Under the pieces are notes generated by a model. The model made no database searches, was not told where the DNA came from, and worked only from the letters and a program-made list of their open reading frames with translations. From a virus, in IMG/VR virus record IMGVR_UViG_3300030329_005548, positions 1-21,561 of that record: 21,561 nt of DNA, one strand, 5' to 3'. This document shows, piece by piece, positions 1 to 18,654 of this stretch. How positions within the stretch are numbered: position 1 is the first letter of the stretch; each line of letters opens with the position of its first letter. Position numbers and translations under genes: made by a program.

Positions 1-629
1 CTGGATATTGTTTTGCTAGAAAAGGCGAGTTAATAATTAGAAAAGCTTTTTTCACTTTTGAAGAATTTTATCAATCTTACTTAGCTGATAATATTCAAGG
101 GCAAAACAAATTAATTCATTTTAGGATTGCAACTAGTGGAAAGGTAAATGAATTAAATTGTCACCCTTTCAAAATAACGGATGAAATTGCTTTTATTCAT
201 AACGGAATAATTCCCAATTATGGCGATAAAATAGAAAACGATACTTTGCAATTTTCAAAAGAAATATTAAAACCTATTTTCAGCGAATATGGAGTTGATA
301 TTTTAAAGCGCAAATCGTTTAGACAAACGCTTGTAAAATTGATAGGACAATCAAAACTAGCTTTTTTAGATAATGAAGGTAATTCATATATTATAAACGA
401 AAAGATGGGGCATTCTAAAAATGGAATTTGGTTTTCAAATAATAGTTATAAAGAATATGGAAACCTAGTTTCATATTATCCGAATAATTATCAATACTAT
501 CAAACTGATGGATTCTGTTTAGATTGCGACATTGAATTAAATAAAGGCGAGTACGAAGTTTGTAATACTTGCGATGAAATATCGGAATATGATGGCTGGG
601 GTAAAAATAAAGTAATTTACAAATCCTAA
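1..629 (+). CDS. Class II glutamine amidotransferase-like protein (5' partial)
   Basis: The reading frame is open from base 3 to the TAA at 627-629, so the gene begins left of the window. The visible part has the class II (Ntn-type) amidotransferase signatures HFRIATSG, NCHPF and IAFIHNGII. In that family these form the glutamine-binding pocket around an N-terminal nucleophile cysteine, which here would lie outside the window. The family releases ammonia from glutamine for a partner synthase; no partner is visible. The C-terminus adds two CxxC pairs (CLDC and CNTC) like a small zinc ribbon, unusual for a bare amidotransferase domain. A TTG inside the frame at 246 is not a credible start because the conserved motifs lie upstream of it. 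The last codons and stop form one strand of a hammerhead ribozyme. The fold call is fairly secure; substrate and pathway are unknown. Confidence 0.75.
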   Translation, partial: GYCFARKGELIIRKAFFTFEEFYQSYLADNIQGQNKLIHFRIATSGKVNELNCHPFKITDEIAFIHNGIIPNYGDKIENDTLQFSKEILKPIFSEYGVDILKRKSFRQTLVKLIGQSKLAFLDNEGNSYIINEKMGHSKNGIWFSNNSYKEYGNLVSYYPNNYQYYQTDGFCLDCDIELNKGEYEVCNTCDEISEYDGWGKNKVIYKS

Positions 630-680
630 CTGATGAGCCTATAAAGGCGAAACGAGGGCTAATTGTCCTCGTCTTAGGAT
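623..680 (+). ncRNA. Type I hammerhead ribozyme
   Basis: All canonical elements are present in order. The stem I 5' strand is ATCCTAA (623-629). The core CTGATGA is 630-636. Stem II is GCCT/AGGC (637-640 with 645-648) with an ATAA loop and the usual G10.1-C11.1 closing pair. GAAA is 649-652. Stem III is 653-659 with 665-671 (7 pairs, one G-U) and a 5-nt loop. The cleavage triplet GTC is 671-673, with A652 pairing U672. The stem I 3' strand is TTAGGAT (674-680), fully complementary to 623-629. Cleavage is expected after C673. Stem I is the open stem, hence type I. It overlaps the end and stop codon of the amidotransferase gene. It lies just before the ribosome binding site of the next ORF, so cleavage would leave that ORF a leader of about 25 nt. 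Confidence 0.93.
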
Positions 681-5427: not shown

Positions 5428-5560
5428 CGAACTTCCTTTTGATTGTACTATAAACCTCTAAAGCCAGTATCACCATCAAGAATGAGAACACGAATATCAT
5501 TGCCATTCCCAATCCACCAATGAACAAACTGCCAGCTATCTTAACTATCGCATCTACCAT
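5417..5560 (-). CDS. Small membrane protein (47 aa)
   Basis: The 47-codon frame starts at ATG 5560 behind GGAGAAATTAC and ends with TAA 5419-5417, overlapping the next start. Residues about 5-37 form one long or two short hydrophobic segments (IAGSLFIGGLGMAMIFVFSF, then LMVILAL), followed by a short basic tail (TIKRKFDAK). One transmembrane span with the tail in the cytoplasm is likely. It overlaps the end of the methyltransferase region by 20 nt. No family is recognised. Confidence 0.6.
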   Translation of the reverse strand: MVDAIVKIAGSLFIGGLGMAMIFVFSFLMVILALEVYSTIKRKFDAK

Positions 5561-5648
5561 GTAATTTCTCCAACAAAACTCTGATCGCTCTTTCTGCCAC
5601 CTGTGGCACTACCCCATTCCCAAGTAATCTCAATCTATCCACTCGATT
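5541..5648 (-). CDS. C5-methyltransferase C-terminal motif, third segment (frame of the catalytic part)
   Basis: In the same frame as the catalytic ORF (6426-6971), the final 35 residues read NRVDRLRLLGNGVVPQVAER..., the motif IX/X end of C5-cytosine methyltransferases (GNGVVPQVAE). The rest of this open frame (up to 6011) is a shadow of the repeat-rich ORF. To be joined to that ORF a -1 shift is needed near 5640-5660, where the preceding frame reads MGLPVGWTQL before its stop at 5632-5630. The tail overlaps the next small gene by 20 nt. Either recoding, a sequence error or gene decay explains the break. Confidence 0.6.
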   Translation of the reverse strand, partial: NRVDRLRLLGNGVVPQVAERAIRVLLEKLHGRCDS

Positions 5649-6448
5649 GGTAGTTGAGTCCACCCCACAGGTAGACCCATCAACTGCTCCACCCAGTTTG
5701 GGTTCAATTTCCCATCTATTTTGTTTCTCCCCAGACTTCTCACTAGGCTTGCTTGTTTCGAGTTTATCTCCGCAAATGGTCTTTTGTTGTACTCGTAAAG
5801 GCACGGAGTTCCCCACGACTCTCGGCTCTTCCCACTCGTGTTGCTCTTGTCCTGGTCTTGCTGGCCATCCAAAAGGACTATCTTGTCCAGATCGTTCCTC
5901 TGTCTCGCCTTGTCCGTTCCCAGTCCGCCCTTCCAATCCCTTGATTTCGGAGTTGGCCAACCTTTCGAGGATTCTTCCGACCAATTCTTCTTTTCTTTGT
6001 TTGTTTTCCAATTATGCACCTGCTCTCTTAAGTTTGAACATCCCCCCTTATTTGCTTTTTCACTACGTTCCTCTGGCTTCCTTACATCGCTTCTAAAATC
6101 CATCAGTTGAGGTGTAGCCCAATTCTTCTCTTCCCTTGATTTCTCCCTCTGTACTGCCATCGCCAAATTCACCGATCTGCCACTACCAGCCTTAGTTTTT
6201 CCCTCTTTGACCGCCTTTTTTACCCTTGCCCTTCTCTCTTTTAATAACCTTTTTGACTTCTCCCAGGGAGTTCCATCGCCAATATTGGTCGTATCTGCCG
6301 TCGGCCAATTCTCATAAGTCTCTACCGCATCCCTTAATTTTGCACCACGAATTTGCCCAGAGGTCTTTCTTTTACTTTTAAAACCACCCTTATTGAGAAT
6401 GGTCTCAATTCTACCACCCTCACCATCACTCGATGTCGCTGTAGGCCA
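5630..6448 (-). CDS. C5-methyltransferase variable/target-recognition region, second segment (other frame)
   Basis: After the catalytic ORF stops at 6426, coding continues in a second frame. It shows repeated W-x-T motifs: WPTATSSDGEGG, WPTADTT, WATPQLMDF, WPTPKSRDW and WGTPCLYEY, followed by LNPNWVEQLMGLPVGWTQL. Such segments occur in the variable C-terminal part of many phage C5-methyltransferases. There is no convincing ribosome binding site or start near 6448, so it is probably translated by a frame change from the catalytic ORF (+1 relative to it) or was separated by an indel. This frame is open all the way to an ATG at 6976, but its part upstream of 6448 does not look like a protein family. 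Confidence 0.65.
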   Translation of the reverse strand, partial: WPTATSSDGEGGRIETILNKGGFKSKRKTSGQIRGAKLRDAVETYENWPTADTTNIGDGTPWEKSKRLLKERRARVKKAVKEGKTKAGSGRSVNLAMAVQREKSREEKNWATPQLMDFRSDVRKPEERSEKANKGGCSNLREQVHNWKTNKEKKNWSEESSKGWPTPKSRDWKGGLGTDKARQRNDLDKIVLLDGQQDQDKSNTSGKSRESWGTPCLYEYNKRPFAEINSKQASLVRSLGRNKIDGKLNPNWVEQLMGLPVGWTQLPIEWID

Positions 6449-6971
6449 GGATAAAGACTCTCTTCCGCTGGTGTGGAGCGCCAACTTCTTCCGCTGAGAA
6501 TATTCCCCACGAAGTCTTGTAACCTCTTTCTTCCAGATCTCCGAGGACATATTGGAGTACCGACTGCCCATCGGCTGTTTTACTCCAGATAATTCCTTCG
6601 ACGTTTTCGAGAATAACATAAGTTGGTCTGCACTCTGAGATTCCTCTTGCGATAAAGGGGTAAAGGTGTCTCGGATCCTCTGTGGAAGCGCCTCTGCCCG
6701 CAGCCGAGAACGGCTGACAAGGGAATCCTGCCGACAAGAAAGATACTCTGTTACGAAATTCTTTGAATGGGAAGGTCTTAAGGTCTGAGTAGATAGGCGC
6801 TGGATGTAAATGACCCTCTTCCATCTTCGCGACCAAGTTTGCGATTGCGAAGGCTTCGATCTCCACATAAGCGATCTCTCTGCAACCTGGGAAAACTCCT
6901 CTGAGTCCTCGACCAATCCCTTCGTATCCAGTACAGAGCGATAGATGGGTAAGTTCTTTGGTATTATCCAC
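6426..6971 (-). CDS. DNA (cytosine-5) methyltransferase, catalytic segment
   Basis: The 181-aa ORF carries motif I SLCTGYEGIGRGL (11-23, AdoMet binding), motif IV GFPCQPFS (82-89, nucleophile C85), motif VI ENVE (122-125) and motif VIII QRKRVF (168-173), all intact. Target-recognition and GNG motifs are missing because the frame closes at 6426; they continue in other frames downstream. The start is probably GTG 6971, 7 nt after AAGGAG; the two ATGs closer to that site (6976, 6973) open a different frame. It would methylate cytosine in phage DNA, possibly against host restriction. The gene is visibly GC-richer than its neighbours, which hints at separate acquisition. Whether the whole enzyme is active depends on how the frames are joined. 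Confidence 0.88.
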   Translation of the reverse strand: MDNTKELTHLSLCTGYEGIGRGLRGVFPGCREIAYVEIEAFAIANLVAKMEEGHLHPAPIYSDLKTFPFKEFRNRVSFLSAGFPCQPFSAAGRGASTEDPRHLYPFIARGISECRPTYVILENVEGIIWSKTADGQSVLQYVLGDLEERGYKTSWGIFSAEEVGAPHQRKRVFILAYSDIE

Positions 6972-6972
6972 A

Positions 6973-7620
6973 TCATATCTCCTTATGCAACTTATCTAAC
7001 TCCATACACGCTTTAAAAACCCTCCATCCCCAGTCCAACTGAGATTTCCCCACAAAATGATGGGAAAAAGCACCAGAATTCTTATCAAGCTTCAATATCA
7101 TAGCCGATTCGATCCTCGCCTTTGGCTGATGTTCTAAGTACATCTTCCGATATGCTGCAAGCTGACAGGTCATCTCTGGGTAAATCCCCTTACTGGTTTT
7201 AAAATCACCTAACACCAAAGCACCATTGATCCTTGCCACAAAATCAGCCGTTCCACCTACTCTATATTTTTCTGATACCATCTTTAATTCAATCGCTTCA
7301 TACTTAGGCTTGGTCATCTTCTTCCATTCTAGATATCCCAAGAAAGCATTTTCAGCCTTCTCTATTTGCTCTGCCGAATAATCTTCGGTGTTTGGTTTCT
7401 CTCCTTTTATATCACATTCACATAGATAGTGAGCTAATGTGCCGATCGTACCAGCTTCCTTTAACACCGCATCTGGATCATCACCAGCTAAAGCGGTTCT
7501 CCTAGCCCAAGCCACTAAGACATTCTTATTCCACCCCAGGTTATTGAGGATTGTTGTTACCCCCTTAACCCTTGTTCCATCTTTAAGTTTATACGCTGTA
7601 TGCGCTTTTGTTTTCGCCAT
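6973..7620 (-). CDS. PD-(D/E)XK nuclease, RecB/Cas4-like
   Basis: The 215-aa protein shows the RecB/Cas4-type nuclease core: GTLAHYLCE (H64), YRVGGTADFVA (D126), LGDFKTSKG (D139, K141) and MTCQLAAY (Q153, Y157). The acidic residues and lysine bind metal and cleave DNA; the Q-Y motif is typical of the RecB subgroup. No Cas4 iron-sulphur cysteine cluster is evident. With SSB and the Hjc-like resolvase in the same operon, it likely acts as a recombination or DNA-processing exonuclease. The start ATG lacks a clear ribosome binding site and lies inside the preceding small ORF, so translation is probably coupled. It ends two bases before the methyltransferase GTG. Confidence 0.88.
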   Translation of the reverse strand: MAKTKAHTAYKLKDGTRVKGVTTILNNLGWNKNVLVAWARRTALAGDDPDAVLKEAGTIGTLAHYLCECDIKGEKPNTEDYSAEQIEKAENAFLGYLEWKKMTKPKYEAIELKMVSEKYRVGGTADFVARINGALVLGDFKTSKGIYPEMTCQLAAYRKMYLEHQPKARIESAMILKLDKNSGAFSHHFVGKSQLDWGWRVFKACMELDKLHKEI

Positions 7621-16974: not shown

Positions 16975-17634
16975 TATTCATTTCCCTTGATCGTTTTTCA
17001 CACGCAGTAATCTCTTCACTAATAACACGAAAGATGTCAATAGACCTAGCATCGGCTTCGCTTAGAGTTTGCGCTAAAGGTAGGTTAAACTTTGTGGATA
17101 CAAAGTAATCTTCGATATATCCCTCTATCTCCCTGTCAATAAAGAACTTAGGGTTACAGAAGAAGTTTAGGTTGTAGTATAGGTTTTGCCCTAGAGAGAA
17201 TTTGTTGTGCTTATCCTCTGCTAAAATACGATCACATTCGTTCCATATCTCATCTTCAGTAAAGGTGATGACCTTTGCTAAGGTAGGGCTTTGGGCTTCG
17301 TAAGAGGTAAATTTTACTGGATATAGGCTATTCCCCCATCCAAAGAAATTACACCATGTAGAAAGCCTTACTTTAAGTTCTTTTTTTTAGACAAGCCTTT
17401 ATAGTGGAGATAAACCTCATTCAATACTTCGTCAATTTGTGCATCGTCTAATTTCTTGAAGGTTTCTTCGGGATTTTCGAAGGCTTTTTCCATACACCAG
17501 TTTAATAGATCAAAGTAAGCGTCTTTTTCTAATTGGTCATCCCAAAACACTTTCATCTCTATACGATGTAGTTCTCTGCGTTCTCCAAAGGTGATTGGGC
17601 GAACTTCAAATTCGCCATGTGGGGTTTTTATCAT
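16964..17634 (-). CDS. Tail assembly chaperone, long -1 frameshift product (gpGT-like)
   Basis: Translation begins at ATG 17634 and shifts to the -1 frame at A-AAA-AAG (17386-17380). The -1 frame then stays open for 138 codons (GAA CTT AAA GTA...) to a TAA at 16966-16964, 11 nt inside the tape-measure gene, giving about 223 aa. The extension includes YYNLNFFCNPKFFIDREIEG and LAQTLSEADARSIDIFRVIS. It has no start codon or ribosome binding site of its own. This is the gpG/gpGT arrangement conserved just upstream of tape measures in siphoviruses, where the pair binds tape measure during tail assembly. It explains the 390 bp between 16975 and 17367 that otherwise look empty. Confidence 0.87.
17368..17634 (-). 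CDS. Tail assembly chaperone, short zero-frame product (gpG-like)
   Basis: The 88-aa zero-frame product ends LSKKKNLK before TAA. It begins 6 nt after the tail-tube stop region and has a mixed charged helical composition (FGERRELHRIEMKVFWDDQL). By position and by the slippery A-run near its end it is the G-like half of the chaperone pair. In the lambda-type system G is made in excess over GT, and the ratio matters for tail assembly. Sequence similarity to lambda G itself is not evident, as usual for this family. Confidence 0.85.
   Translation of the reverse strand: MIKTPHGEFEVRPITFGERRELHRIEMKVFWDDQLEKDAYFDLLNWCMEKAFENPEETFKKLDDAQIDEVLNEVYLHYKGLSKKKNLK
17380..17386 (-). promoter_or_regulatory. 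-1 ribosomal frameshift site A-AAA-AAG
   Basis: In the zero frame the codons are AAA AAA AAG, part of a run of eight A's (17388-17381) ending in G. A tandem slip by -1 re-pairs both tRNAs perfectly. The zero-frame stop is 12 nt downstream. It lies between the tail tube and the tape measure, the standard place for this recoding. Confidence 0.85.
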
Positions 17635-17640
17635 AATTTA

Positions 17641-18654
17641 TTAGGTTCTAATAGCTAACATCGCATTTGAGCCAGATGCACCAAACTTAACTGATACATC
17701 ATACATCATCGCATTAGCTTCGTTATAAGCTACATTAGTGATTTTTCCATAGCTACCTATAAAGGCAAAATCACTTGCACTTCCGATAGTTGCGTGATTA
17801 GCAAGGTTTGAAATTACTGTAGTGCCAGCTTTCATTGTGGTTGGAAGCTCGGCTGTTTGATTGTCATATTTGACTGTTGCGTCTAAAGTTGCACTTAATT
17901 CAGGTACGGCTCTAACAATCGCTTCTGGATTTCCATTCGCATCCCCCTGACCTACATATTCAGAAGGATTTTCTAAATTTAGTGAAAAACTTTGTATAAC
18001 ACAATCTTCAGCGCCAGCAATCGTTTTCTTTGCTGTGCCAGCTAAAGTTGCGAGTGAATAGTAGCTTGTTCCGTATGCGGAAGGGGATGATGGCGCAGCT
18101 TGAGTAAAGCTACTGATATATCCTGTTCTGGCGGTAGCTGTAAAGCGTAAGCGACCAGACTCATTTGCCATGTCTCCAGAAATTGATAAAGAAGTGATCG
18201 TACATCCTGGGAAAATGATTGATCTGTTTCCACCAGAAGTCGCAGGAGCTATAACTGCTATAGTTACGGTATCTGCTATTGTAATTGAGGAGCTATCTCC
18301 AGTTTCAAGCTCTGGTGGTGTATAATTATAAGGAATAGTTACTACATCACTTGATTCTGCAAGACCTATACAGTTTTGCACAAGTAATGGAGCGACAGTT
18401 GTATCAAATACTCCAGAAAAAGTAATTTCCTTCGTTACACCTTTTTCATCAGTAAGTGCATCATCAACATCAAATACGCGACCATCTGAGCCACTTCTAA
18501 CGTCAAGAACTTGGGTTAAATTAAAATTAGGCATTTCAACGCTGTCTACATTGATAAGTTGCATTGAACTTACATTTGCCGTACCAATAGTGCTTTCAGC
18601 TTTTATCGCAACCTGAAACTCTTTCGGTGAATATGCTGCTCCGTCTAAAGCCAT
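17641..18654 (-). CDS. Major tail (tube) protein
   Basis: The 337-aa protein starts MALDGAAYSPKEFQVAIKAE and is rich in Ala, Thr, Ser and Val with many predicted strands (GVTKEITFSGVFDTTVAPLL, ITSLSISGDMANESGRLRFT). This composition and its position, before the frameshifted chaperone and tape measure, mark it as the tail tube subunit. EITFSGVFD and SGRLRFTATA are typical of beta-sandwich tube proteins. It would polymerise into the non-contractile tube. The start overlaps the preceding 58-aa gene by one base (TAATG), with AAGGAG upstream. Confidence 0.8.
   Translation of the reverse strand: MALDGAAYSPKEFQVAIKAESTIGTANVSSMQLINVDSVEMPNFNLTQVLDVRSGSDGRVFDVDDALTDEKGVTKEITFSGVFDTTVAPLLVQNCIGLAESSDVVTIPYNYTPPELETGDSSSITIADTVTIAVIAPATSGGNRSIIFPGCTITSLSISGDMANESGRLRFTATARTGYISSFTQAAPSSPSAYGTSYYSLATLAGTAKKTIAGAEDCVIQSFSLNLENPSEYVGQGDANGNPEAIVRAVPELSATLDATVKYDNQTAELPTTMKAGTTVISNLANHATIGSASDFAFIGSYGKITNVAYNEANAMMYDVSVKFGASGSNAMLAIRT

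Follow-up and report, generated by a model that had tools for sequence, protein, structure and literature searches.

Polycistronic mRNA of phage T7 is cut by a host protein at RNase III sites between the early genes, which leaves hairpin-protected 3′ ends. Clustered hammerhead ribozymes that flank genes in phages and prophages were described by Perreault et al. in 2011, who proposed that they process long transcripts (PMC3088659). In the haloviruses HF1 and HF2, the HHphage element lies 13 nt before a start codon, and a mapped transcript 5′ end falls no more than 3 nt from the cut site (PMC3088659). Self-cleaving ribozymes are also reported to be enriched near genes of Mu-like phages (PMC10085705), and the role of prokaryotic hammerheads is treated as an open question in a review of the field (PMC6155905).

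The DNA analysed here is a virus record of 21,561 bases from an uncultured phage, referred to below as the window, which carries a primase, a helicase-like ATPase, an integrase and tail genes. A complete type I hammerhead occupies positions 623–680 of the + strand, between a class II glutamine amidotransferase-like gene and the gene for a small membrane peptide. The original prediction regarded a copy in this setting as undescribed. This holds only for the exact locus, since both the occurrence of hammerheads at phage gene borders and a role for them in transcript processing already appear in the work of Perreault et al. (PMC3088659) and in the review (PMC6155905).

The hammerhead and its neighbouring genes

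The amidotransferase-like gene (3–629, + strand) has lost its 5′ end at the contig edge, and is identified by the Pfam models GATase_6 (E 1.6e-5) and GATase_4 (E 4e-5). Its homologue in the related locus L002 is complete (128–841, 237 aa) and starts MC, as a class II enzyme should. The stop codon of the window gene, UAA 627–629, lies inside stem I of the ribozyme. Downstream, a Shine-Dalgarno-like AAAGGA (687–692, + strand) precedes the gene of the 37-aa membrane peptide, MKSIINFLHNLLIISFLAIITTSLIFGFASIVWITFS (699–812, + strand), which starts 25 nt after the predicted cut, is conserved in L002, and has homologues in L127, L128 and L130. A DNA search of annotated phages with the locus gave no match. 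The message had been proposed to be an early one, which is unsupported, the promoter-like sites being not above chance.

The core segments CUGAUGA (C3 to A9, 630–636) and GAAA (G12 to A15.1, 649–652), and the cleavage triplet GUC (671–673), are read from the sequence exactly where they had been placed. The core is complete, with C3 U4 G5 A6 N7 G8 A9, G12 A13 A14, the A15.1-U16.1 pair and H17 supplied by 630–636, 649–652, U672 and C673, and its first segment is invariant in relatives except at N7. Stem II (637–648) has the four base pairs originally described, GCCU 637–640 with AGGC 645–648, and is closed by an AUAA loop (641–644). Stem III likewise has the predicted seven pairs between C653–C659 and G665–G671, one of them G-U, and the additional pair A652-U672 brings the hairpin (652–672) to eight pairs around a UAAUU loop (660–664). 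For stem I, seven pairs can indeed be formed between AUCCUAA 623–629 and UUAGGAU 674–680, but the part conserved in relatives is six base pairs long (624–629 with 674–679), and the possible seventh pair, A623-U680, sits at the flank of the conserved six. Both the 5′ and the 3′ end of the element are at this open stem, which gives the type I topology. The predicted cut, between C673 and U674, follows from membership of the hammerhead family; after such a cut, the downstream RNA would begin with the 3′ strand of stem I (674–680). The conserved six pairs of stem I are immediately followed by UAA 680–682, a candidate contact for loop II.

The minimum-energy fold and the centroid of the RNA are identical and correspond exactly to the hammerhead structure (–22.3 kcal/mol), with the three stems enclosing the core and the pairs 1.1-2.1, 10.1-11.1 and 15.1-16.1 all formed. 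Compared with dinucleotide shuffles, the stability of the fold has a z score of –4.05. A structure scan that required the core together with at least four, three and four pairs in stems I, II and III, respectively, returned this site as the sole match on both strands of the window. Applied to 60 Mb of sequence simulated with a first-order Markov model of the window's composition, the same scan gave no matches, which excludes a chance match. Three further core-like sites in the window fit a loose pattern; they lack stems, and were rejected as hammerheads.

Searches with Rfam at gathering thresholds, which the original prediction had suggested as a check, gave no match in the window. The core, the circular permutation with stem I open and the cleavage triplet are common to the window copy and Hammerhead_1 (RF00163), but the copy scores below the gathering cut-off of that model (34 bits). 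The best match is a sub-threshold one to RAGATH-1-hammerhead (RF03152; 36.5 bits against a cut-off of 56.3, E 1.4e-4), which shares the hammerhead core, but is modelled with a hairpin upstream and a single base pair in stem II, where the window has 4 bp. HH9 (RF02275) reaches 20.9 bits against a cut-off of 52. Membership of either family was rejected, and 623–680 is therefore not an Rfam-called member despite having all the sequence and structure features of a hammerhead.

To train a covariance model, R1, 28 phage hammerheads from outside the window were used, all having a 5-nt loop II; copies with 4-nt loops were left out because their stem II was out of register in the MAFFT alignment A2. 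R1 gives a single match in the window, at 620–685 (40.2 bits, E 3.6e-8). The fold, this out-of-sample match and the comparative evidence below all bear out the assignment to type I, and the presence of a complete type I hammerhead at 623–680 is confirmed. Applied to 14 related phage loci, R1 yields 46 copies (E ≤ 0.001), against two hammerheads called by Rfam at gathering. Part of the R1 training set comes from these loci and the rest from elsewhere, and the stems of the copies are visible by eye. This difference implies that phage annotations probably miss most such elements.

Several other features of the window may be mentioned here. Positions 1132–1177 hold two copies of ATTGAGACAAATCTCATTATTAA, and positions 1302–1380 hold 3.2 tandem copies of a 24-bp unit, TTATATATTTACCAGGAGGGTAAT; each of these units contains the inverted repeat TGAGA/TCTCA. 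The related locus L066 aligns with a 48-base gap at 1302–1380, i.e., two units fewer, and TTATTGA... elements resembling the window repeats come after the membrane-peptide gene in L128, L130 and L132. The tandem repeats are possibly operator or origin repeats. On the – strand (5541–6976), a C5 cytosine methyltransferase is seemingly split over frames, with an N-terminal part at 6426–6971 (PF00145) and C-terminal-looking motifs in the overlapping frames 5630–6976 and 5541–6011; this could be due to a frameshift, to an assembly error or to an arrangement as two genes. A tRNA-SeC called by ARAGORN at 17577–17666 overlaps predicted coding regions of the opposite strand, and is probably false.

Relatives and the same junction in other phages

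Relatives were collected with a 20-base core pattern, CTGATGAGCCTN{4,6}AGGCGAAAC, which matches at least 119 stretches in IMG/VR viral contigs, whereas 257 Gb of cellular genomes gave only 12 matches, so that the elements are strongly enriched in viruses. Among the matches listed, 119 sites had flanks, and the stem III hairpin that type I requires at the core is present in 95; some of the remaining sites resemble type II or III. Stem covariation, which the original prediction had named as a check, is present. Stem III was assigned blind to stem I at 48 non-redundant sites; of these, 45 form all six stem I pairs, compared with 3.5% when partners are shuffled. Pair counts from a further set, whose members had been picked for their pairing, were left out of this evidence. 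Several pair types occur at every stem I position, and pairing ends after six pairs. The cleavage triplet is GUC at 44 of these 48 sites.

Some phage contigs carry many copies. A 39.8-kb contig (G008; L225/L226) has 14 R1 matches, all on the coding strand, and looks T7-like from its open reading frames (an 803-aa polymerase-like frame and replication genes), which were read by eye and not by family search. R1 also matches the Pelagivirus phages S35C6 (AP013542) and cultured HTVC109P (MH598805), with E values of 1.4e-11, 4.9e-11 and 2.1e-9. These type I hammerheads, at 30570–30640 and 32718–32787 in AP013542.1 and at 1101–1170 in MH598805.1 (L227/L228), are unannotated, and the HTVC109P copy is overlapped by genes annotated as hypothetical. 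They share the R1 match with the window copy but differ from it in phage group and genes and in a longer stem III, and those read out have a CUGAAGA core. BLAST matches in Microcystis phage MaeS and Burkholderia phage SURPRISE13 are not hammerheads by R1.

Other kinds of hammerhead were noted alongside these. The cultured Streptomyces phages Paedore (L219, around 8293) and R4 (L220, around 2001) have an intergenic GGCGAAACCCC..GGGGUC-hairpin-CUGAUGAGCC that is type II hammerhead-like; some such genomes show several places by BLAST, with four in Paedore. A second kind, GTTTTTGTC-hairpin-CTGATGAGCC..GGCGAAAC, looks like type III with stem III open, and occurs in L004, L035, L068, L071 and L101. 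Type I copies with a long stem III lie beside it in L004, L035, L071 and L101.

Two main kinds of loop II can be distinguished among the relatives. In the first, the loop is 5 nt long and UNAAU-like, and the six stem I pairs are preceded by A in all 62 copies and followed by A in 56. In the second, a 4-nt (A/G)UAA loop is accompanied by a UAA flank in 12 of 16 copies. The first 3′ flank base is U in 15 of 16 copies with the 4-nt loop and in 2 of 62 with the 5-nt loop (Fisher p 5e-13, a value that overstates independence since the sequences are partly related). The window copy, with its AUAA loop and UAA flank, has the matching signature of the 4-nt kind. The simplest reading of this covariation would be that loop II touches the end of stem I; other hammerheads depend on such a contact to cut rapidly (PMC6155905). 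In the window copy, the additional pair A623-U680 could interfere with it.

At the junction itself, the closest homologue (L066/L002, 96% protein identity) has kept the ribozyme except at a single position, where G replaces A676 and U627-A676 becomes U-G. Divergence in L066 is 1 of 58 positions in the ribozyme, against 40 of 208 (19%) at the third positions of codons in the adjacent gene (p 6e-5), and does not differ significantly from the 5.5% of the downstream intergenic DNA (p 0.17). In L127 (59%) and in L128, L129 and L130 (55–56%), the amidotransferase gene is followed directly by the homologous membrane-peptide gene and the ribozyme is absent from the junction, which makes it dispensable there. 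With both frames intact, these loci and the window constitute a natural with/without pair in which the role of the element can be tested.

The more distant L132 (46%) has a hammerhead-like element at the junction, GCUAAA-CUGAAGA-UUCCGUAAGGAU-GAAA-UAAGGGC...GCCCUUAUA-UUUAGC-UAA, which was found by eye and is detected by neither R1 nor Rfam. The RNA folds as a hammerhead (z –4.30), with stems that are wholly different and yet pair. It has a GUAA loop and a UAA flank, together with a U.U mismatch at 10.1-11.1 and AUA as the cleavage triplet. Site-specific covariation at this locus thus draws on one close homologue and the diverged L132. A general link between the ribozyme and the amidotransferase gene was considered and rejected: R1 matched none of 83 sources, which with few exceptions were further loci of that gene, and the structure scan over other amidotransferase loci returned only the near-identical L126. 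The nearest named phages by amidotransferase, MEP401, MEP402 and ctgrD200, have no R1 match either.

These comparisons bear on whether the window copy is a (nearly) inactive relic, or a horizontally acquired structured spacer, that is kept only as a stem-loop protecting the 3′ end of the upstream mRNA. Such an origin is compatible with the ribozyme-free junctions of L127–L130 and with a divergence that is not significantly below that of neighbouring intergenic DNA, and the stem III hairpin alone could afford the protection. A relic should, however, be the first to lose precisely what is intact here, i.e., the core bases, the G10.1-C11.1 pair, the cleavage triplet and the loop/flank signature, and we regard this explanation as quite improbable.

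Register with the flanking genes and proposed function

Layout statistics were obtained for 88 non-redundant copies, 83 of which have an identified upstream frame; the longest open frame was taken mechanically in each case, so that individual assignments may be wrong. In about 75 of the 83, the upstream stop codon ends between –16 and +9 nt from the first base of stem I. Stop positions peak at the border of stem I, at its end, as in the window, and at the UGA of the core, which serves as the upstream stop in 11 of 83. The next start codon follows the cut at a median distance of 26 nt (quartiles 25 and 35, 88 copies), compared with 25 nt in the window.

Taking these results together, we consider it likely that a functional type I hammerhead forms an mRNA junction between the amidotransferase and membrane-peptide genes and divides the polycistronic message. 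This assessment builds on the complete core and its fold, the empty scan of simulated sequence, the out-of-sample R1 match and the blind stem I pairing, as well as on the loop/flank signature, the stop/start register and the low divergence of the ribozyme with the U-G pair kept. Contigs with multiple copies, such as the 14 on one strand of G008, and the HF1/HF2 precedent (PMC3088659) argue in the same direction. Against it count the p value of 0.17 relative to intergenic DNA, the absence from four relatives, the A623-U680 pair and the small basis for site-specific covariation, with a single close homologue.

With the sequence, the fold, the family membership by covariation and the stop/start register as a basis, catalysis and cleavage in vivo are predicted to proceed as follows. 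The RNA would compete with ribosomes, and would fold once the one ending at UAA 627–629 has cleared, after which the ribozyme would cleave itself 3′ of C673. This would leave an upstream mRNA that ends in the ribozyme hairpins with a 2′,3′-cyclic phosphate, an end chemistry expected from the family, and a membrane-peptide mRNA that begins with 5′-OH-UUAGGAUAAAACGAAAGGAUAACAAAUG and whose 25-nt leader carries a separate ribosome-binding site. The element would probably serve to split a polycistronic phage mRNA so that stability and translation can be set separately for each part, without a host nuclease.

The register also invites a different view of a cleaving hammerhead, in which it is mainly a translation-gated switch: a ribosome terminating at UAA 627–629 would cover the core, and the RNA would be cut only if the amidotransferase message is poorly translated, which ties mRNA fate to translation. 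The location of the stop inside stem I in the window, the fact that most relatives have theirs within, at or beside stem I or the core, and the use of the core UGA as a stop are all consistent with gating, but tight packing of a ribozyme between genes would give an equal register, and we find a primary role as switch rather unlikely.

The spacing is also pertinent to the possibility that the hammerhead is a passenger of genetic exchange, either as part of cassettes that act as small mobile junctions or in the service of circular or spliced RNA products, and plays no role in expressing these two genes. Presence and absence at one syntenic site, neighbour genes that differ between phages, and the missing link to the amidotransferase gene, with no R1 match in its other loci, would all fit. 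The precise distance of about 25–26 nt to the next start and the fresh ribosome-binding site instead suggest use in expression, and spliced or circular products were looked for by Perreault et al. and none were detected (PMC3088659). A pure passenger is highly improbable, and division of the message at the junction is the reading we retain.

Comparison with known systems

The window hammerhead resembles those of Perreault et al. in lying at gene borders in phage DNA, often with several per genome, but the clusters tested in that work come from other phages and hosts. Both the kind of element and its proposed role are thus already known, and what is added here is this copy, the comparison of the locus and the layout statistics. 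The window locus, and the register of stop codon, 6-bp stem I, about 26 nt and start codon with its two loop/flank signatures, were not found in the open papers that were searched, and a description of this layout may exist elsewhere. Together with the two signatures, the strict layout provides a practical search model.

A broader generalization is put forward tentatively, with somewhat less than an even chance of holding: environmental tailed phages may widely use hammerheads as host-independent mRNA scissors in a strict junction register, with the stop in or next to stem I and the start about 26 nt after the cut. Such elements would fall into two structurally tuned subclasses, would be gained and lost at single junctions, and would be largely missed by Rfam thresholds. 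They would be the counterpart of the T7 RNase III sites, with which they would share the division of a polycistronic phage mRNA between genes and the hairpin-protected 3′ ends. In T7, however, a host protein does the cutting, and its sites are not homologous to the ribozyme.
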